From contig JAJFGE010000018.1 in assembly GCA_021776295.1 (NCBI GenBank), positions 1-35,319 of the forward strand: a DNA stretch of 35,319 nt, written 5' to 3'. Below the pieces are notes generated by a model. It was not told the DNA's origin, ran no database searches, and saw only the letters and a program-made list of their open reading frames with translations. The position numbers and the translations under genes were made by a program. Position 1 is the first letter of the stretch, and every line of letters starts with the position of its first letter. Positions 16,468 to 31,630 of the stretch are shown piece by piece. Source of the DNA: Hyphococcus sp. (lineage in GTDB: Bacteria > Pseudomonadota > Alphaproteobacteria > Caulobacterales > Parvularculaceae).

Positions 16468-16519
16468 CAATAGACTTGGCGTCTAGGGATGCAAGTCAGC
16501 GCCGCGTATTGGCGTTAGA

Positions 16520-16682: not shown

Positions 16683-17675
16683 ATGTACGCTCAACAAGTC
16701 AAATCCACCGGCGCAAGGGTGAAATCTCTTGAGGAGATGGAACCGGACGAGCGTGCGTTTCAGGAACGCATCGACGCCGACATCAAGATTGAGCCCAAGG
16801 ACTGGATGCCGGAAGGCTATCGCAAGACCTTGATCCGCCAAATTTCGCAACACGCGCATTCGGAAATTGTCGGGCAATTGCCGGAGGGGAACTGGATCAC
16901 CCGAGCGCCGACCTTGGACCGCAAAGCCATTCTCATCGCCAAGGTGCAGGACGAAGCCGGGCACGGGCTTTATCTTTATTGTGCGGCGGAAACTCTTGGC
17001 GTATCGCGCGATCAGATGACCAAAGATTTGCTCTCCGGCAAGGCGAAATATTCCTCGATCTTCAATTATCCGACGCTGACCTGGGCCGATATTGGCGCCA
17101 TTGGCTGGTTGGTTGATGGTGCAGCGATCATGAATCAGGTGCCGCTACAGCGCTGCTCCTTCGGGCCATACAGTCGGGCGATGATCCGGGTGTGTAAGGA
17201 AGAAAGCTTTCATCAGCGGCAAGGTTACGACATAATGATGAAGCTTTGCGATGGAACGTTTGAACAAAAAGAAATGGCGCAGGACGCGCTAAACCGTTGG
17301 TGGTGGCCGTCATTGATGATGTTCGGCCCATCCGACACTGACAGTGTGCATTCGGCGCAATCCATGGCGTGGAAAATCAAACAGGATTCGAATGATGAAC
17401 TTCGCCAGAAATTCGTCGACCAGACCGTGCCGCAAGCGGATTATCTCGGGTTGAATCCGCCGGACCCGGATATTAAGTGGAACGAGGAGCGCGGCGCCTA
17501 TGATTTTGGCGAGGTTGACTGGGAAGAGTTTTTTCGCGTCGTCAAGGGGGATGGCCCTTGCAACAAGGAACGCTTGGCCGCTCGGAACAAGGCGTGGGAT
17601 GACGGCGCCTGGTTCCGTGAAGGGCTGATGGCGCATGCCGCAAAGTGCGATGCGCGCAAGCTCGCGGCGGAATAG
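16683..17675 (+). CDS. paaA: 1,2-phenylacetyl-CoA epoxidase, catalytic subunit A
   Basis: The di-iron catalytic subunit (330 residues) of the PaaABCE epoxidase, which adds one oxygen atom to the ring of phenylacetyl-CoA. The four-helix ferritin-like core carries the expected metal ligands: Glu in HAHSEIVGQ, the ExxH in QDEAGHGLY, Asp in [11 protein letters not shown], and a second ExxH in [11 protein letters not shown]. The conserved C-terminal part ([17 protein letters not shown]) is present. Length agrees with PaaA. It opens the long rightward operon; the TAG stop overlaps the AGGAG ribosome binding site of the next gene. Confidence 0.98.
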
Positions 17676-24353: not shown

Positions 24354-26618
24354 TTAAAGCTTCAAACTACGCAGGCGCAACGCATTGGCGACTACCGATA
24401 CCGAACTGAGGCTCATGGCGGCGGCGGCGATGATCGGCGATAGGGTCAACCCAAACGCCGGATAGAGAATACCGGCGGCGACAGGCACGCCCAACGCGTT
24501 ATAGATAAATGCGAAGAACAGATTTTGGCGGATATTGCTCATGGTCATCTGGCTTAAACGCCGTGTACGGACGATTCCCATGAGATCGCCTTTCACCAGG
24601 GTGACCTCGGCGCTTTCCATTGCCACGTCCGTTCCTGTGCCCATGGCGACGCCAATATCGGCTTGCGCCAGAGCCGGCGCATCGTTTATGCCATCGCCGG
24701 CCATCGCGACGATGCAGCCTTCTTGTTGCAGCGCTTTGACGACGTTGCTTTTGTCCTGAGGCAAAACATCGGCTTCGATCCGGTCAATGCCGAGTTTGGC
24801 GCCAACGGCTGCTGCGGTCAGCTTGTTATCGCCGGTTAGCATGACAATCGACAGGCCTGCTTTATGTAGCGCTTTTAACGCAGCCAGCGTCGTCTTTTTG
24901 ATCGGGTCGGCGACGCATATCAAGCCCAACACGGCGGTCTCGCTCGCCACGAACATCACGGTTTCGCCGTTCCGCCGTCGGTCTTCGGCTTGCACGCGGG
25001 CGGGACCTGGATCAATGTTTAACTCATCAAGCATGCGCGCATTGCCGATCGCCAGTTTGCGACATTCAACCATCCCAATCACGCCTTTGCCGGTGACCGA
25101 CGTGAAGTCATCGACGGTTGTGAGGGGAAGGCCCTTTTCTTTTGCGTCCCTGACAATCGCCGCCGCGAGCGGGTGCTCGCTATTGCGTTCAAGCGCGGCG
25201 GCGAGCGACAAGAGTTCATCTTCCGGCATGTTGCTAAGGGAGATGACGGCGACGACTTTCGGCTTTCCTTCCGTCAGCGTGCCGGTTTTATCGACCACCA
25301 GCATGTCGACTTTTTCAAACCGTTCCAGCGCTGCAGCGTCTTTGATTAAGACACCCAATTGCGCGCCGCGCCCGACACCGACGATGATTGACATCGGTGT
25401 TGCCAGACCTAGCGCACATGGACAGGCGATGATCAGGACTGAGATGGCCGCGACAAGAGCGTATGCATAAGCGGGCGCCGGGCCCCAAATCGCCCAGACG
25501 ATGAAAGAAGCAGCAGCGATAAGCATCACGACAGGAGTAAAATACCCGGCGACGACATCGGCGATGCGTTGAATTGGCGCCCTTGAGCGTTGGGCGTCGG
25601 CGACCATTTGCGCGATTTGCGCCAGCATGGTTTCTGAACCAATGCGAGTGGCGCGCATGATGAACGCGCCCGATCCATTGACTGCGCCGCCGATGACCGT
25701 GTCGCCGGTTTCTTTTCCGACTGGCATAGATTCGCCGGTGATCATGGATTCATCGAGGGATGAACTTCCCTCAACGATCTCGCCATCGACGGGAACTTTC
25801 TCGCCAGGACGTACGCGTAATAGGTCGCCGACCGTGATGTGTTCGACCATCACTTCTTCATCTTCGCCATCGTCGCGCACGCGCATGGCGGTTTTTGGCG
25901 CCAGGTCTAGAAGCGCGCGTAGCGCGTCGCTTGTGCCAGCACGGGCGCGAAGTTCAAGCACTTGTCCAAGCAGGATCAAGACGACGATGACGGCGGCGGC
26001 TTCAAAATAAACCGCAACGGCGCCATCGGCGTCTCGAAAGCCAGCGGGGAACACTTGCGGCGCCAGCACAGCAACAACGCTATAAAGAAAAGCCGCGCCA
26101 ACGCCGATTGAGATCAGCGAGAACATATTCAGGTTACGGCTGATGAACGAAGCCGCGCCGCGCGTAAAAAACGGCCATCCGGACCATAAAACCACCAGTG
26201 TTGCTAGTGCGAACTGCACCCAGTTCGATTGGGTTTTGGTGATAAAGCCGTCGAAAAAGTCGGGCGCGAAATGAACGCCCATTTCGAGAAACAACACCGG
26301 AAGCGCGAACACCAGGCCAACCCAGAAACGCCGGGTCATATCGATCAACTCTGATTTGTCTTCTTCGACGCCCACATCCACTGCCTCCAGCGCCATGCCG
26401 CAGATCGGGCATGAGCCAGGGCCGACCTGGCGGACTTCCGGATGCATCGGGCAGGTGTAGATGGCGCCTTTATCGGCCGGTTTGGCAAGCGTGCTTTTCG
26501 CTTTTGCCGCGGCGTGTTGATGGCCCGAACCATGCTCATGGCAATGAGCATGTTCGTCATGTGTTGCACCTTCTGACCTAGGAGCGTGGTCGTGTGCATT
26601 ATTATGAGAGTGTGACAT
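24354..26618 (-). CDS. Copper-translocating P-type ATPase
   Basis: A 754-residue P1B-type ATPase that pumps Cu(I) out of the cytosol. The N-terminus is rich in histidine ([16 protein letters not shown]) and is followed by a metal-binding module ([20 protein letters not shown]) instead of classical CxxC HMA domains. The transmembrane metal site is CPC in [11 protein letters not shown], the phosphorylated Asp is in [12 protein letters not shown], the nucleotide-binding HP motif is [11 protein letters not shown], and the hinge reads [13 protein letters not shown]. Eight membrane segments can be placed. It follows copB by 81 bases containing a 30-base dyad. The gene name copA is used for such pumps but is reserved here for the oxidase, so no symbol is given. 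Confidence 0.95.
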
Positions 26619-26699: not shown

Positions 26700-27443
26700 T
26701 TAGAACCGGAGCCGAATACCCGCGACGACTGATGCAGAACCGACATCTTCAAAATTTGCACGGGCGAAATCCGCTGTTTCACCGAGCTTGCGGCTCCAAT
26801 TTACGCCCACATAGGGTGCGAATTCGCGTTTTATTTCATAGCGCAAACGAAGCCCTAACTCGACATCATTGACGCCCGACCCCACGCCCAATGTTGCTAC
26901 ATCCTGAATAGCGATATTGGTTTCAAAACGCGGTTGCGCGATGAAATGCTGTGTCAAGCGGATATCATATTCGAGTTCGAGCTGTGCTGAGATATCGCCG
27001 TCATCGCTGATAAAGGCGGCGGCATCGACTTCAAACCAGTATTGCGCCAGGCCTTGCAGACCGATAACGGCGAAGGTGCGCGACGGGTTGTCGGGTTTGA
27101 TGTTCTGACGGACCCCAACCTGGACGTCCCAGAACGGACGAATGGCGCGGCTGTAAAGGCCTTGAACCTCCGCATCGCCGAAACCGCCGCCCTCAAGGCT
27201 GCGCTCGCCTTCGGTTTTGAACCAGAACTTGTTATAGTCGCTGCCATACCAGCCCTGACCATCCCAAATTAGCTGTCCGGAACCTTCATTGGACTGATAT
27301 TCAAGCCTGTCCAGAAGCGCAAACCAGTTGGTTCCCGCGCCCGCTGTTTCGGCTTTAGACGCGCCTGAAAACACAGCCGCTGTGGTGAACAGGGAGGCCG
27401 CGAGGGTTCCGGCCTTGAATTTTCTTTGCCTCACAATGCTCAC
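26700..27443 (-). CDS. copB: Copper resistance protein B (outer membrane)
   Basis: A 247-residue outer-membrane beta-barrel protein of the CopB/PcoB family. A signal peptide (TLAASLFTTAAVFSGASKA) precedes the conserved start of the domain (LLDRLEYQSNEGSGQLIWDG, then WYGSDYNKFWFKTEGE), and amphipathic strands run to a terminal phenylalanine (VVAGIRLRF), as in outer-membrane barrels. The Met/His-rich segment that many CopB proteins carry between signal and barrel is missing. The start is GTG at 27443, with GGAGG nine bases upstream, and overlaps the copA stop as GTGA; a longer frame upstream lies inside copA and is not used. Confidence 0.92.
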   Translation of the reverse strand: MSIVRQRKFKAGTLAASLFTTAAVFSGASKAETAGAGTNWFALLDRLEYQSNEGSGQLIWDGQGWYGSDYNKFWFKTEGERSLEGGGFGDAEVQGLYSRAIRPFWDVQVGVRQNIKPDNPSRTFAVIGLQGLAQYWFEVDAAAFISDDGDISAQLELEYDIRLTQHFIAQPRFETNIAIQDVATLGVGSGVNDVELGLRLRYEIKREFAPYVGVNWSRKLGETADFARANFEDVGSASVVAGIRLRF

Positions 27444-29203
27444 AGATTTGCCTCCGCAATCTGGTCCATGACGGATACGACCCGAAACATGCCGGCCTTC
27501 ATGTGATAGAGGAGATGGCAGTGAAACGCCCAAGGCCCGCGCACATCGGCGGAGATTAGGGCGGAGAGCTTTTCGCCGGGCTTAACATTGATGGTGTGCT
27601 TGCGCGGCAGGAGGTCGTCAGCGCCGTTTTCAAGCTCCATCCACATGCCGTGCAAGTGAATGGGATGGTCCATCATGGTGTTGTTGATCATAGTCAGGCG
27701 CAAGCGTTCGCCGAATTTAAACGGAATAGGCTCGGTCACCTCGTTGAACTTCTTGCCGTCGAACGACCACATATAGCGTTCCATATTGCTGGTGAGGTGC
27801 AAGTCGATTTCGCGCGCGGGCGGGCGTTGATCGTAGAACGGCGCCAGGGCGCGTAAGTCCGTATAGACCAAAACCCGGTGGTCGACATCCGCCAGCCCAA
27901 AGCCGCGTTCGTGCAACCGCTTGCCGGGCGCCTCGGCGCGCATCGCAACGCCGGGCCCGAACAGGAAAGGACCGCCTGGCGTTGCAGAGGTTTTTGGAAT
28001 GGGCCCGCCCGCCATAGCGTCGTCATTCATCGAGCCGTGGTCCATGTCTTTCATAGCGCCATGGTTCATTTTGCTGTGGCCCATGGCCATATCCGCCATG
28101 GTCCGGGTGGCGCGAGGACGTAAGTCCGGCACTGCTGCGGACATGCCTGCGCTGGTTGCTAATGTTCCGCGCGCATAACCGCTGCGGTCCATGGATTCCG
28201 CCATAATCGTATAAGCGCGACCTTCTTTTGGCTCGACGATGACATCATATGTCTCGGCGACGGATATCTGAAACTCATCCGTCGCCACCGGCTGGACGAG
28301 CTGGCCGTCCGCCTCAACTACGGTCATTTCCAGTCCCGGTATGCGAATATTGAAATAGGACATCGCTGCAGCGTTGATGAAGCGCAGTCGCACCCGTTCC
28401 CCCGGTTGAAACAAGCCCGTCCAGTTGGTACCGGGTGCCTGGCCGTTCATCAAATAGGTGTAGGCCGCCCCGGTGATGTCGGCGATGTCAGTGGCATCCA
28501 TGCGCATGCGCCCCCACATGCGGCGCTCGCGCATCGTCGCCTTCAGGCCATCGTTGGATACATCGCGGAAAAAATCGCCAATGGTTCGTTTTTGATAATT
28601 GTAATAGTCGCTCGATTTTTTCAGTTTGGCGAAGATCTTGTCGGGGTTTTCAAAACTCCAGTCGGAAAGCACGATCACATGCTCGCGGTCATACGCGACC
28701 GGATCACGGCCAGCCGGATCGACGATCATCGGCCCATAAACGCCTGCCGGCTCCTGCAAGCCGGAATGGCTGTGATACCAGTATGTGCCGGATTGTTTTA
28801 ACGTGTACTGATAAACGAAAGTTTCACCGGGCGGAATTCCGGGAAAGGATGCCGATACGTTGGGTACGCCGTCCATTTCGGAATCCAGCAAAATACCGTG
28901 CCAGTGTATCGACGTATCTTCGTCCAAATCGTTGGCGACGCGGAGGGTCACGGTTTCGCCTTCGCGAAAGCGCAATAAAGGCGCCGGAAGAGAGCCGTTG
29001 ACCGCGGTGACATAGCCCATTCTGCCGCCAATGTTGATGGTGCGTTTGCCGACCCGGAGATCATAGATATTATCGACGCCAGCAAGCGCGGCGGGTCTTG
29101 CCACAGAAGATGCAGTTTGCGCCCAGGCCGGCAACAACCCCTGGAGTCCGGTCCAAACTCCGGCGCCAGCGCTGGTTTGCAGCAAAGCTCGACGTGTGAT
29201 CAT
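27440..29203 (-). CDS. copA: Multicopper oxidase CopA (copper resistance)
   Basis: A 587-residue periplasmic multicopper oxidase of the CopA/PcoA type, which oxidises Cu(I) to the less toxic Cu(II) and may bind excess copper. A Tat signal begins MITRRALLQTS. All four copper-ligand clusters are present: HWHGILLDSEMDG, YWYHSHSGLQE, HPIHLHGMWMELENG and FHCHLLYHMKAGMF, the last with Cys and axial Met. A Met/His-rich segment (GHSKMNHGAMKDMDHGSM) in the middle should bind Cu(I). The ATG at 29203 fits the Tat signal and has AGGAA upstream. It is followed by copB with a four-base overlap and is preceded by a 149-base gap after the sigma-factor gene. Confidence 0.96.
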   Translation of the reverse strand: MITRRALLQTSAGAGVWTGLQGLLPAWAQTASSVARPAALAGVDNIYDLRVGKRTINIGGRMGYVTAVNGSLPAPLLRFREGETVTLRVANDLDEDTSIHWHGILLDSEMDGVPNVSASFPGIPPGETFVYQYTLKQSGTYWYHSHSGLQEPAGVYGPMIVDPAGRDPVAYDREHVIVLSDWSFENPDKIFAKLKKSSDYYNYQKRTIGDFFRDVSNDGLKATMRERRMWGRMRMDATDIADITGAAYTYLMNGQAPGTNWTGLFQPGERVRLRFINAAAMSYFNIRIPGLEMTVVEADGQLVQPVATDEFQISVAETYDVIVEPKEGRAYTIMAESMDRSGYARGTLATSAGMSAAVPDLRPRATRTMADMAMGHSKMNHGAMKDMDHGSMNDDAMAGGPIPKTSATPGGPFLFGPGVAMRAEAPGKRLHERGFGLADVDHRVLVYTDLRALAPFYDQRPPAREIDLHLTSNMERYMWSFDGKKFNEVTEPIPFKFGERLRLTMINNTMMDHPIHLHGMWMELENGADDLLPRKHTINVKPGEKLSALISADVRGPWAFHCHLLYHMKAGMFRVVSVMDQIAEANL

Positions 29204-29352
29204 GGTTTTTCCTGTGCCGTATACAATTTGTTGGGCTTTTAGAGAGCGGTGAACCGGTTGGATGATTTCCCTTTGAGGGGATATACGCAGCAAAGCTTCC
29301 CATCCCTCGCTTTTGTCGATAACGAAAGCGCGCTAAACTACGTTGATTGACA

Positions 29353-29943
29353 TTACTCTGTGAGGTTGAGCTTCTCACGCAACGCATTGCGGGCGCGATA
29401 AACCAGCATTTCGATGCTTTTTCGTGAAACGCCGAGAATTTCTGCGCATTCGGCCTGAGGCCGATTCTCGATGCTGGACAGGATGAGCGCGGTGCGAAGT
29501 TTGTGTGGCAGCGTGTCTATAGCGCGGCTCAAATTTGCTAGTGTTTGGCGCTGTGCGGTGATTTCTTCCGGGCTGGCGCCGGGGTCTGGAATATCGATTG
29601 GGAGCGACGGCTCGCCCACGGCGCCGCGCCCGAATTGATCGAGAGACACAAGTCGCCTTATTTTTTTCTTACGCGCCTGGTCGCGGCATTTATTGAGCGC
29701 GATGCGATACATCCAGGTGGACGCCTTCCACGCCGGGTCATAGGTCGAGGCTTTGGTATAGATACTGACGAATGTATCCTGCAAGATATCCTCAGCATCT
29801 GCCGCAATGCCAGTATAGCGAAGGATAAACCGAAACAGCGGCTCTTTGTAGCGGTCTATTAAAAGCGAGAGCGCCGCATCCGTTCCTTCGGCGAGATCAT
29901 GCAACAAATCTGCGTCGGTTTTAGCGACGTTGTCATTTGGCAT
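29353..29943 (-). CDS. ECF sigma factor of the copper island
   Basis: A 196-residue extracytoplasmic-function sigma factor. Region 2 (about residues 20-90) contains DAEDILQDTFVSIYTKA and the -10 recognition stretch ASTWMYRIALNKCRDQARK; region 4 (about 135-190) has ALILSSIENRPQAECAEILG and the helix-turn-helix SRKSIEMLVYRARNALREKL. No extra cysteine-rich C-terminal domain is present, so metal sensing must come from its partners. The gene overlaps the periplasmic sensor gene by eleven bases, and copA follows. By analogy with cnrYXH, the sensor and anti-sigma should hold it at the membrane until metal binds. Which promoters it reads here I could not establish. Confidence 0.93.
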   Translation of the reverse strand: MPNDNVAKTDADLLHDLAEGTDAALSLLIDRYKEPLFRFILRYTGIAADAEDILQDTFVSIYTKASTYDPAWKASTWMYRIALNKCRDQARKKKIRRLVSLDQFGRGAVGEPSLPIDIPDPGASPEEITAQRQTLANLSRAIDTLPHKLRTALILSSIENRPQAECAEILGVSRKSIEMLVYRARNALREKLNLTE

Positions 29944-30376
29944 GTTCGCGCAACGTGTCGGCCACGAGGCGATCAAACTCGGTTCGCTGCTCTGAAGTAA
30001 GCACCTCACGCATTGCGTATAGATGCTTGATGGTCAAAACTTGGAGGTTGTTCATTGCGGAGTGGATTTCGACAATCGCCGCGTCAACATTTTCATTATA
30101 GGCATCTTCGTGCTCAAGGAGATTGGCGAGATTGCGGTTAGCGATACGTAGGCGTTCGCGTTGATAGGTCTCTTCTTTGCTGTTGTCCCGGTCCAGCGCT
30201 TCCAGGCTTTGGCGCTGTTCAGCCGTTAGATCGAGGGAGGCATAAAGCTGCTGGTGAAATTCCGTATGTGGCCGGGCGGGGGGCGAGAAAATACGCCCGC
30301 CAATCCATGCGCCGCCGATAGCCGCCGCGACGACCAGTAACAAGGTGAGGGCAAGGCGGCGGATGTCCTGCGTCAA
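29933..30376 (-). CDS. CnrX-like periplasmic metal sensor
   Basis: A 147-residue membrane-anchored periplasmic sensor of the CnrX/ZraP heavy-metal-resistance group. One N-terminal helix (LALTLLLVVAAAIGGAWIGG) is followed by a four-helix hairpin domain. The metal ligands recalled for CnrX of Cupriavidus (two His spaced by four, an acidic residue, then a His and a Met spaced by four) have counterparts at His37, His41, Asp62, His118 and Met122, and the surrounding phrases TIKHLYAMRE and LTSEQRTEFDRL match that family. It overlaps both neighbours, the anti-sigma candidate upstream and the sigma gene downstream, in the order Y-X-H. In CnrX the metals are nickel and cobalt; the neighbours here point to copper. 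Confidence 0.88.
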   Translation of the reverse strand: MTQDIRRLALTLLLVVAAAIGGAWIGGRIFSPPARPHTEFHQQLYASLDLTAEQRQSLEALDRDNSKEETYQRERLRIANRNLANLLEHEDAYNENVDAAIVEIHSAMNNLQVLTIKHLYAMREVLTSEQRTEFDRLVADTLREHAK

Positions 30377-30711
30377 TGGCTGCGCCCCAAATGAGTTGAC
30401 GGCAGCTCAGGTGAGTTAAGCGAAAACACCATCATACCACCGGGATTAGCGGAATAGGCTGGTTGAGTAAGGCCGATGCTGGCCATGCCGAGCATTAAGC
30501 TTGCGGCCATGACCGCAGGGCGAAACGTTCCCTTTGGGAATGCGCGCGCCAGAATGGGCGCGCCTAGACCAAGCGCGCTTTGCGTGCGCAAACGCATCTT
30601 GACCTTGGCCTCAAGGCCTGTGAGCTCCTGGCTGTTGCCGCAATTGCAGTCCGCACAGGTGCAATTAGTGCATTTGCAATAATCTTCCAACAGGCTGTCT
30701 AGCTGTGACAT
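30373..30711 (-). CDS. Candidate CnrY-like anti-sigma factor with Cys cluster (internal start)
   Basis: A 112-residue product beginning at the in-frame ATG at 30711, preceded by AGAGGAG nine bases upstream, one of the strongest ribosome binding sites in the window. Residues 12-24 are CKCTNCTCADCNC: six cysteines in a CxC-xx repeat as in metallothioneins. Then come a basic amphipathic stretch (LEAKVKMRLRTQSALGLG), one membrane helix (AVMAASLMLGMASIGL, about 67-82) and a short periplasmic tail. This topology and the gene order with the sensor and sigma factor match CnrY, the anti-sigma factor of the cnr system. The cysteine cluster would lie in the cytosol and could sense Cu(I). Function is inferred from context and topology, not from sequence similarity. 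Confidence 0.6.
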   Translation of the reverse strand: MSQLDSLLEDYCKCTNCTCADCNCGNSQELTGLEAKVKMRLRTQSALGLGAPILARAFPKGTFRPAVMAASLMLGMASIGLTQPAYSANPGGMMVFSLNSPELPSTHLGRSH

Positions 30712-31185
30712 GACGCAACACTCCTCTGCTCGCACCATAATACGTAATGAGGGCGGTTGTCCCTCATATACTATGTCGGATGGTAAATGCGGCGCTAACC
30801 CGGACAGCCTGTCATATAAGGTCACAAGCGGCAGCGACAGATAGGCGGCGGTGAAGCCGATCAACCAGAAACCTGCCGAGAGGCTGAAAATACGGGTGTT
30901 CCAGCGATACGCCTGAGCGCAGGCTTTGGCCTTTTCCGGCCCCGCAAGGCAGGTGCGGTTCGGGCGAAAGAGGGACCAGCCCGCGGCCGCCATCATAACG
31001 CCGCTGCCGGTAAACAGCCATATTTTGTAGTCGGCGAGGGTGGCCAGAAAGGAAAAATTGGCGAACATCGCCACCGATACGGCGCCAAGGCTTAATGACA
31101 TAAGCAAAATAGGCAATGCGCAGCAGATCAGCGTTGTCGACGATGCGAACAACAGCATCCAGCTCCATTGCTTATCTTCAAGCAT
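30373..31185 (-). CDS. MerT-like membrane protein reading into anti-sigma candidate
   Basis: One open frame of 270 codons that looks like two genes joined. Residues 1 to about 125 resemble MerT-type transporters: a first helix with a Cys pair (STTLICCALPILL), a second helix (IWLFTGSGVMMAAAGW), a cytoplasmic loop with two Cys (TCLAGPEKAKACAQ), and a third helix (FSLSAGFWLIGFTAAYLSL). From residue 159 the sequence has its own ribosome binding site and looks like a CnrY-type anti-sigma factor. No stop or frameshift separates the halves. If made as one chain, the topology would put the middle part in the periplasm, which does not suit sigma-factor binding; two products are therefore more likely. 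It overlaps the sensor gene by four bases. Confidence 0.65.
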   Translation of the reverse strand: MLEDKQWSWMLLFASSTTLICCALPILLMSLSLGAVSVAMFANFSFLATLADYKIWLFTGSGVMMAAAGWSLFRPNRTCLAGPEKAKACAQAYRWNTRIFSLSAGFWLIGFTAAYLSLPLVTLYDRLSGLAPHLPSDIVYEGQPPSLRIMVRAEECCVMSQLDSLLEDYCKCTNCTCADCNCGNSQELTGLEAKVKMRLRTQSALGLGAPILARAFPKGTFRPAVMAASLMLGMASIGLTQPAYSANPGGMMVFSLNSPELPSTHLGRSH

Positions 31186-31203: not shown

Positions 31204-31407
31204 CTATGCTGTAGAGAAGCCTTCGCTTCTGGTCATGCTGCGATAGGTAAATCCTTTATTGAGGAACATTTTTTTGAGTTGTTCGTCAGTAAAATTTACG
31301 CTCTCGTCAGCGCAGACCGTGATGACGCCGGTTTCGAAGTCGGCCGAAACCGATTTAACGTCGTCAATTTTCTTCAGGGTCAGTTGGTGCGGGGCAAATT
31401 GTATCAT
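31204..31407 (-). CDS. HMA-like small protein lacking the CxxC metal site
   Basis: A 67-residue protein whose C-terminal two-thirds follow the ferredoxin-like heavy-metal-associated fold: KKIDDVKSVSADFETGVITV, then DEQLKKMFLNKGFTYRSM. In normal HMA domains a GMTCxxC motif lies before this; here the matching place reads GAMIQFAPHQL, with no cysteine pair. The frame continues upstream for 21 codons without an ATG and is then closed by a TAA. GGAG lies only two bases before the ATG, so the true start is unsure. It may be a degenerate or truncated metal-binding protein. It is the first gene of the copper island, 18 bases before the MerT-like frame. Confidence 0.5.
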   Translation of the reverse strand: MIQFAPHQLTLKKIDDVKSVSADFETGVITVCADESVNFTDEQLKKMFLNKGFTYRSMTRSEGFSTA

Positions 31408-31554: not shown

Positions 31555-31630
31555 GGGCCCGTAGCTCAGTGGTTAGAGCCGGCCGCTCATAACGGTCTGG
31601 TCGCCAGTTCAAATCTGGCCGGGCCCACCA
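31555..31630 (+). tRNA. tRNA with CAU anticodon, probably tRNA-Ile2 (lysidine type)
   Basis: A complete cloverleaf of 76 bases with encoded CCA: acceptor GGGCCCG with CGGGCCC, D stem GCTC/GAGC, anticodon stem GGCCG/CGGTC with one G-U pair, loop CTCATAA with CAT at 31588-31590, and T stem GCCAG/CTGGC. CAU can mean elongator Met, initiator Met or Ile2. The whole sequence is closer to ileX-type tRNA than to elongator Met as I recall them, and the first base pair G-C is not the initiator mismatch. Identity between Ile2 and Met is not certain. Confidence 0.93.

Follow-up and report, generated by a model that had tools for sequence, protein, structure and literature searches.

The locus and its features

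The window, by which we mean the whole stretch of 35,319 nucleotides that was analysed (Hyphococcus sp., Parvularculaceae; GCA_021776295.1, contig JAJFGE010000018.1, positions 1-35,319, forward strand), comes from a partial assembly that is 85.5% complete (G000). A small gene on the reverse strand of the window stands at the head of a putative regulatory module, and the features around it are given below in the order of transcription.

31204..31407 (-): merP-like remnant (HMA, E 0.00066, under the cut-off)
30780..31185 (-): MerT-like gene (Pfam MerT, E 0.0023, under the curated cut-off; boundary approximate)
30741..30764 (-): promoter-like site AGGG-N16-CGTA before the anti-sigma gene, between the MerT-like and anti-sigma genes
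30373..30711 (-): CnrY-like gene, very probably for an anti-sigma factor, 112 aa, ATG at 30711
30667..30705 (-): predicted helix 1, residues 3-15 (low-confidence model; contact with sigma4 expected by analogy with CnrY)
30640..30678 (-): six-cysteine block C12-C24, three CxCx(N/D) units, the third reaching residue 26
30574..30624 (-): predicted helix 2, residues 30-46 (model and alignment; contact with sigma2 expected by analogy with CnrY)
30469..30525 (-): membrane segment, residues 63-81, weakly hydrophobic (Kyte-Doolittle hydropathy)
29933..30376 (-): CnrX-like periplasmic metal sensor gene (Metal_resist), TTG start, 4-nt overlap with the anti-sigma stop
29353..29943 (-): CnrH-like ECF sigma factor gene, its ATG at 29943 overlapping the end of the sensor gene
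29284..29307 (-): another promoter-like site, some 80 nt upstream of the ATG of copA, a start read from the sequence
27440..29203 (-): copA-type multicopper oxidase gene (TIGR01480, E 1.1e-244)
26700..27533 (-): copB, outer membrane copper resistance protein gene (PF05275, E 5e-87)
24354..26618 (-): P-type metal ATPase gene (E1-E2_ATPase, E 3.6e-59; heavy metal binding domain, E 1.3e-12)

The original prediction had read an open frame from the ATG at 30711 whose product carries a cysteine block followed by a basic stretch. Both are present as claimed: the block has the sequence CKCTNCTCADCNC, residues 27-62 contain six K/R versus two E, and a GAGGAG ribosome-binding-like site lies just 5' of the ATG. 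The single membrane helix of the same prediction held up in part, since a segment is found at residues 63-81, but its hydrophobicity is weak. The best 19-residue Kyte-Doolittle mean is 1.44, versus 2.02 for CnrY, 1.18-1.32 for the other six-Cys genes and 1.58-2.40 for the 22 remaining rows of the 26-row alignment A2. A structure model of low confidence (mean pLDDT 54.6) places helices at residues 3-15, 30-46 and 65-77, with C12 and C14 at the end of helix 1 and C17-C24 in coil before helix 2. The cysteines are predicted to lie in the cytosol from their N-terminal position and from the charge, which is more positive ahead of the membrane segment than behind it. Histidine occurs at residues 107 and 112 only. 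Pfam returned nothing above the curated cut-off (best E 0.059), NCBIfam and PADLOC gave no match, and the PDB sequences held no useful solved relative, the one match being at chance level (E 2.7).

That a CnrX-like sensor and then an ECF factor follow was confirmed by both the profile matches and the overlapping frames. The sensor belongs to Pfam Metal_resist (E 1.2e-17), and its best solved relatives are NccX (E 1e-13) and CnrX (E 7.5e-13), with 30% identity to the latter over 141 aligned columns. Among the metal ligands of CnrX, which we take to be H42, H46, E63, H119 and M123, three are kept in the window sensor (H42, H119 and M123, as H41, H118 and M122), and two are exchanged (H46 for Y45 and E63 for D62). 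The ECF factor matched SigW (E 4e-21) and, as the second of the solved chains, CnrH (4cxf, E 9e-19); a Cys-rich C-terminal tail is absent from it, its end reading NALREKLNLTE. The copA, copB and P-type metal ATPase genes lie downstream of the ECF gene on the same strand.

This succession of anti-sigma factor, sensor and ECF factor, with touching or overlapping frames, is that of CnrYXH, the nickel/cobalt system on pMOL28 of Cupriavidus metallidurans, and a small one-helix anti-sigma factor, a CnrX-like sensor and a CnrH-like ECF factor are common to both. The two systems differ downstream, where cnrCBAT is found in Cupriavidus and copA/copB in the window, and in the six-Cys insertion, which only the window protein has. 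Of the two CnrY helices, the first binds sigma4 and the second sigma2 (PMC7406223, in excerpt), and the CnrH regulon becomes derepressed when CnrY or CnrX is lost (PMC4803752, in excerpt).

Homologous loci and the promoter-like motif

When the window protein was searched in 100 related genomes, three further six-Cys genes were found (one in G019 and two in G026), together with weaker matches in the same genus, and most of the other matches were at chance level. Profile A1, built from eight sequences, matched 66 places in 59 of the 398 genomes of the order, and profile A2, built from 26 sequences, matched in three of the 385 genomes of the class, the window's own included; because scoring in these order-wide and class-wide searches was capped at 12-13 candidates per genome, the tallies are minimum values, and six-Cys members diverged elsewhere could be missed. 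A tblastn search of plasmids gave no match. In named public records the six-Cys genes belong to MAGs that carry the labels Marinicaulis sp. and Alphaproteobacteria bacterium, Marinicaulis being now Hyphococcus, Parvularculaceae. G026 holds two diverged merP-merT-anti-sigma-sensor-ECF copies (L030, G026:C75, and L031, G026:C81), the ECF gene being cut by contig ends.

Several candidates were dropped. A match in G064 (L008, GDNCRCTDCNCGN) is a short open frame unlike the family, with no copper genes read nearby; a match in Bacteroidetes (L068) is an unrelated 416-aa protein; and the other weak Cys matches of the 100-genome search were set aside as chance.

The locus set compared here comprises 59 of the 66 order-wide places, the seven weakest or stop-broken ones being left out, and two places from the class-wide search. 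Over these 61 loci, many of which are near-identical so that the counts are not independent events, the CnrX-like sensor lies directly downstream of the anti-sigma gene in 61/61 and the ECF sigma factor comes next in 58/61, as scored with sensor and sigma profiles built from six and three members of the same set. Two loci had no sigma match (L101 and L105) and one stops at a contig edge (L039), and a sigma gene split across two frames was counted as present (L090). Starts were poorly placed in L085, L100, L101 and L105, whose promoter and length entries are weak.

The motif AGGG-N16-CGTA, chosen by eye from the same sequences as were tested, was found before the anti-sigma gene in 25/26 (500 shuffles: mean 0.02, maximum 1), and with a spacer of 16 or 17 it precedes that gene in 57/61 loci. 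The whole window contains three matches; shuffled sequences (mean 0.465) also reach a maximum of three, so that the window-wide count is not significant alone and the case for the copA site is made by its position and by a single close relative, G019, in which the motif likewise stands before copA. The third match, at 16485(+) and 198 nt before an ORF at 16683, is probably due to chance. In other relatives the motif precedes genes for CopC-CopD, DUF411, CusF-type and LTXXQ proteins, and in L073 also a gene for a 103-aa protein without a Pfam match. Sites before several copper-type genes in L029, L032-L035, L072 and L073 may mark a wider regulon. The motif-bearing genes are mostly copper genes, and the motif, taken as a candidate promoter, points to copper as the signal. 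Copper had been named first among the metals of the original prediction, and it is supported by copA/copB downstream and by the motif before copA and before the copper-type genes of relatives.

The recurrence of sensor, sigma factor and motif over the 61 loci, with the motif also before copA, makes the anti-sigma assignment strong and the regulon copper-related. The conserved Y-X-H order, the overlapping frames, the shared promoter motif and the helix-helix-membrane plan (from a low-confidence model) all strongly favour the anti-sigma identity that had been proposed, and the window gene very probably encodes the anti-sigma factor of a CnrYXH-type copper module. It is a protein that would work like CnrY and is not CnrY by sequence similarity: the similarity search against CnrY that had been suggested gave no significant profile match, the pMOL28 protein aligning to profile A2 in hhalign with a probability of 0.9 of 100 over 7 columns. 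This failed similarity test is no argument against function, since RseA and CnrY, different anti-sigma classes that grip the same sigma surfaces, share about 3% of their sequence (PMC7406223, in excerpt).

The six-cysteine block and the adjoining mer genes

The cysteines of the window protein are residues 12, 14, 17, 19, 22 and 24 and form three CxCx(N/D) units, CKCTN, CTCAD and CNCGN. CxCxx repeats are typical of metal-thiolate loops; compared with metallothionein, a small Cys-rich protein with CxC/CxxC thiolates, the units are here embedded in a membrane protein. In alignment A2 the block lies between two conserved helical stretches, inserted and not terminal, and it adds a net 5-10 residues relative to Cys-poor relatives (5 in G026 copy b and 10 in the window form, counted by hand to the conserved Glu of the LE/VE pair).

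Six cysteines occur in 4/61 family proteins, one in 11/61 and none in 46/61. In six of the 11 one-Cys proteins, which are relatives from the window's own family, the single Cys falls in the C17 column. The four six-Cys genes come from three genomes (the window's, G019 and, twice, G026), and their loci cluster as a single clade in the tree built from 22 sensors (support 99/97), so that the six-Cys block has no independent repeat. All six cysteines are kept in 4/4 of these genes despite protein differences of up to 23% from the window's, which makes the block unlikely to be a product of chance, and the Cys codons show one synonymous difference only, at C17 in G026 copy b. Across all six gene pairs, with few sites, the block has a pN of 0-0.08 and a pS of 0.00-0.91; pN is 0-0.11 in helix 1, 0.06-0.14 in helix 2, 0.04-0.09 in the membrane part and tail and 0.09-0.44 in the linker after helix 2. 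By this comparison, on small site numbers, the block resembles the helices and tail in its degree of conservation and exceeds the linker that follows.

Homologs without the block, which the original prediction had counted as evidence against itself, do occur (57/61). They identify the block as a lineage-specific addition that is dispensable for the basic mechanism, and the anti-sigma role is not refuted by them. These Cys-free and one-Cys homologs, mostly from the window's order, have the same cassette, promoter motif and helix-helix-membrane-tail plan, and differ from the window protein in having no loop insertion. Their sensors vary as well: the H46 column of the 61 sensors holds H in 50, F in 6, Y in 4 and Q in 1, Tyr being that of the four six-Cys loci and Phe that of six one-Cys relatives from the window's family. 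With the H46 ligand lost to Tyr/Phe in the same lineage, part of the sensing may have moved inward.

MerP- and MerT-like genes lie upstream in all four six-Cys loci. They are damaged in the window, where the merP-like remnant is without the signal peptide and the CxxC of its relatives. A tRNA-Met gene (31555-31630) stands at the apparent island edge of the window, between an aminotransferase gene and the merP remnant. In G019 the order begins with the aminotransferase gene, other ORFs, merB, a small ORF, merA, merP, merT and a divergent MerR-family gene, and continues with second merP- and merT-like genes, the anti-sigma, sensor and ECF genes, copA, copB, a small ORF and the ATPase gene, this last group being assigned by likeness to the window. 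The G019 merA is thus found 2.4 kb from the module, beside MerB, MerP, MerT and the MerR-family gene, and this first mer group is absent at the same place in the window (a partial assembly). The one-Cys relative G032 (L072, G032:C2, 6775-10099(-)) has merA next upstream of its anti-sigma gene, behind MerP- and MerT-like ORFs (these two identified by reading), so that the link to mercury extends beyond the six-Cys clade. In six one-Cys loci, the gene just upstream, in most cases named by reading, is metal ATPase-like (three loci), encodes a Met-rich protein, is methyltransferase-like or is merA, and is never merT. G000 (85.5% complete) yielded no MerA above the cut-off. Mercury, whose resistance genes adjoin the module, ranks second behind copper as the signal, because the mer group has its own MerR-family regulator, G000 has no such MerA and the motif marks copper genes.

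A proposed second metal input

By analogy with the CnrY/CnrH complex, helix 1 would hold sigma4 and helix 2 would hold sigma2, keeping the ECF factor off RNA polymerase. Once freed, the sigma factor would transcribe its own operon and copA-copB from the AGGG-N16-CGTA promoters. In the six-Cys clade the linker between the helices would have become a metallothionein-like loop of six thiols in the cytosol, most likely binding a soft metal, with Cu(I) as the leading candidate. By folding around the metal, the loop would alter the distance or angle between the helices and tune sigma release, as a second, cytosolic input. That the block binds a soft metal in the cell is probable. Its placement between the presumed sigma-gripping helices makes a role as a second regulatory input plausible, and to the mechanism as a whole, of which sigma binding, metal binding, promoter function and the direction of the effect are the parts we infer, we assign a probability of roughly 0.5. 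The two-sided reading of the original prediction, in which one anti-sigma factor integrates two signals, copper in the periplasm by way of the CnrX-like partner and Cu(I) or Hg(II) in the cytosol by way of the thiol loop, is held only tentatively; the same caution applies to Hg(II), let in by the MerT-type transporters of the same island, as the alternative cytosolic metal of that reading.

Related arrangements are known with the cysteines elsewhere. CorE and CorE2 of Myxococcus xanthus (ECF238) likewise place a cytosolic Cys-rich metal switch on an ECF regulon, but their Cys-rich domain is on the sigma factor itself (PMC3107203, PMC8999054, both in excerpt); in CorE, Cu(II) activates this domain and Cu(I) inactivates it (PMC3107203, in excerpt). 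In OrbS, Cys residues similarly add an on-board metal sensor to an ECF system, for iron, and sit on the sigma factor C-terminus instead of an anti-sigma linker (PMC9023288, in excerpt). SigAb/AabA of Acinetobacter baumannii is a copper-responsive ECF system whose anti-sigma factor is modelled to span R2 and R4 like CnrY; it differs in that the anti-sigma genes lie downstream of the sigma gene, and the excerpted text mentions neither a CnrX-like sensor nor a Cys cluster (PMC12153292). Among the matches listed from the open-licence literature, a Cys-cluster anti-sigma factor of CnrY type is undescribed in the titles and abstract openings.

The anatomy of the anti-sigma factor would be equally compatible with a loop of opposite sign, in which Cu(I) in the cytosol strengthens or re-establishes sigma binding and ends the response as cytosolic copper rises. 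A precedent exists in CorE, where Cu(I) is the inactivating form (PMC3107203, in excerpt), but CorE is itself the sigma factor, bearing a C-terminal domain of its own, and not an anti-sigma factor, and we regard such a reversal as unlikely. The cysteines might also carry no signal value and serve to buffer metal, to protect the protein or to form a structural Zn site. The 57/61 homologs without the block, the surrounding metal-resistance genes and a block pN similar to the values for helix 1 next to it and for the membrane part would fit such a passive role, which is nevertheless opposed by the insertion of the block exactly between two predicted helices and not at an end, and by its lower pN than in the linker after helix 2. 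The classic zinc anti-sigma (ZAS) motif, HxxxCxxC (PMC4598750, in excerpt), is moreover absent from the window protein, and we see in the passive role a minor possibility.

A thiol switch for disulphide stress, in place of a metal site, has to contend with the fact that both the adjacent and the motif-bearing genes are copper genes, and with CxCxx repeats of the kind found in metal-thiolate loops. Such a switch is improbable here, even with RsrA known as a redox-sensing anti-sigma factor (PMC4598750, in excerpt). Finally, the protein could be the C-terminal part of a MerT fusion, that is, a transporter domain and no anti-sigma factor, an objection that the original prediction had foreseen. The one hint of this is that the MerT-like frame of the window runs into the anti-sigma gene without a stop, its own stop being out of frame, and forms a continuous 270-aa open frame (30373-31185(-)). 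This is not shared by the three other six-Cys loci, in which merT has its own stop and the anti-sigma gene is separate (3/3); the gene next upstream in the six one-Cys loci is, as described above, never merT; and the anti-sigma gene of the window is treated as a separate gene because it has its own promoter-like and ribosome-binding-like sites. We consider a fusion highly improbable.

To return to the loop as a signal input, the comparison suggests that a copper-type switch of anti-sigma factor, sensor and ECF factor, in itself known, has in one small alphaproteobacterial group gained six cysteines between its presumed sigma-holding helices, and with them a second metal input inside the cell. 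If the loop is such an input, a CnrY-like anti-sigma factor would here sense metal itself, one switch would sense in two compartments, and the linker would illustrate the way in which a regulator can have a new input grafted onto it. The stages of this change are visible side by side in the family, as proteins with no Cys, with one Cys at the right place and with six, and the natural Cys-free homologs make the loop idea directly testable by linker exchange.
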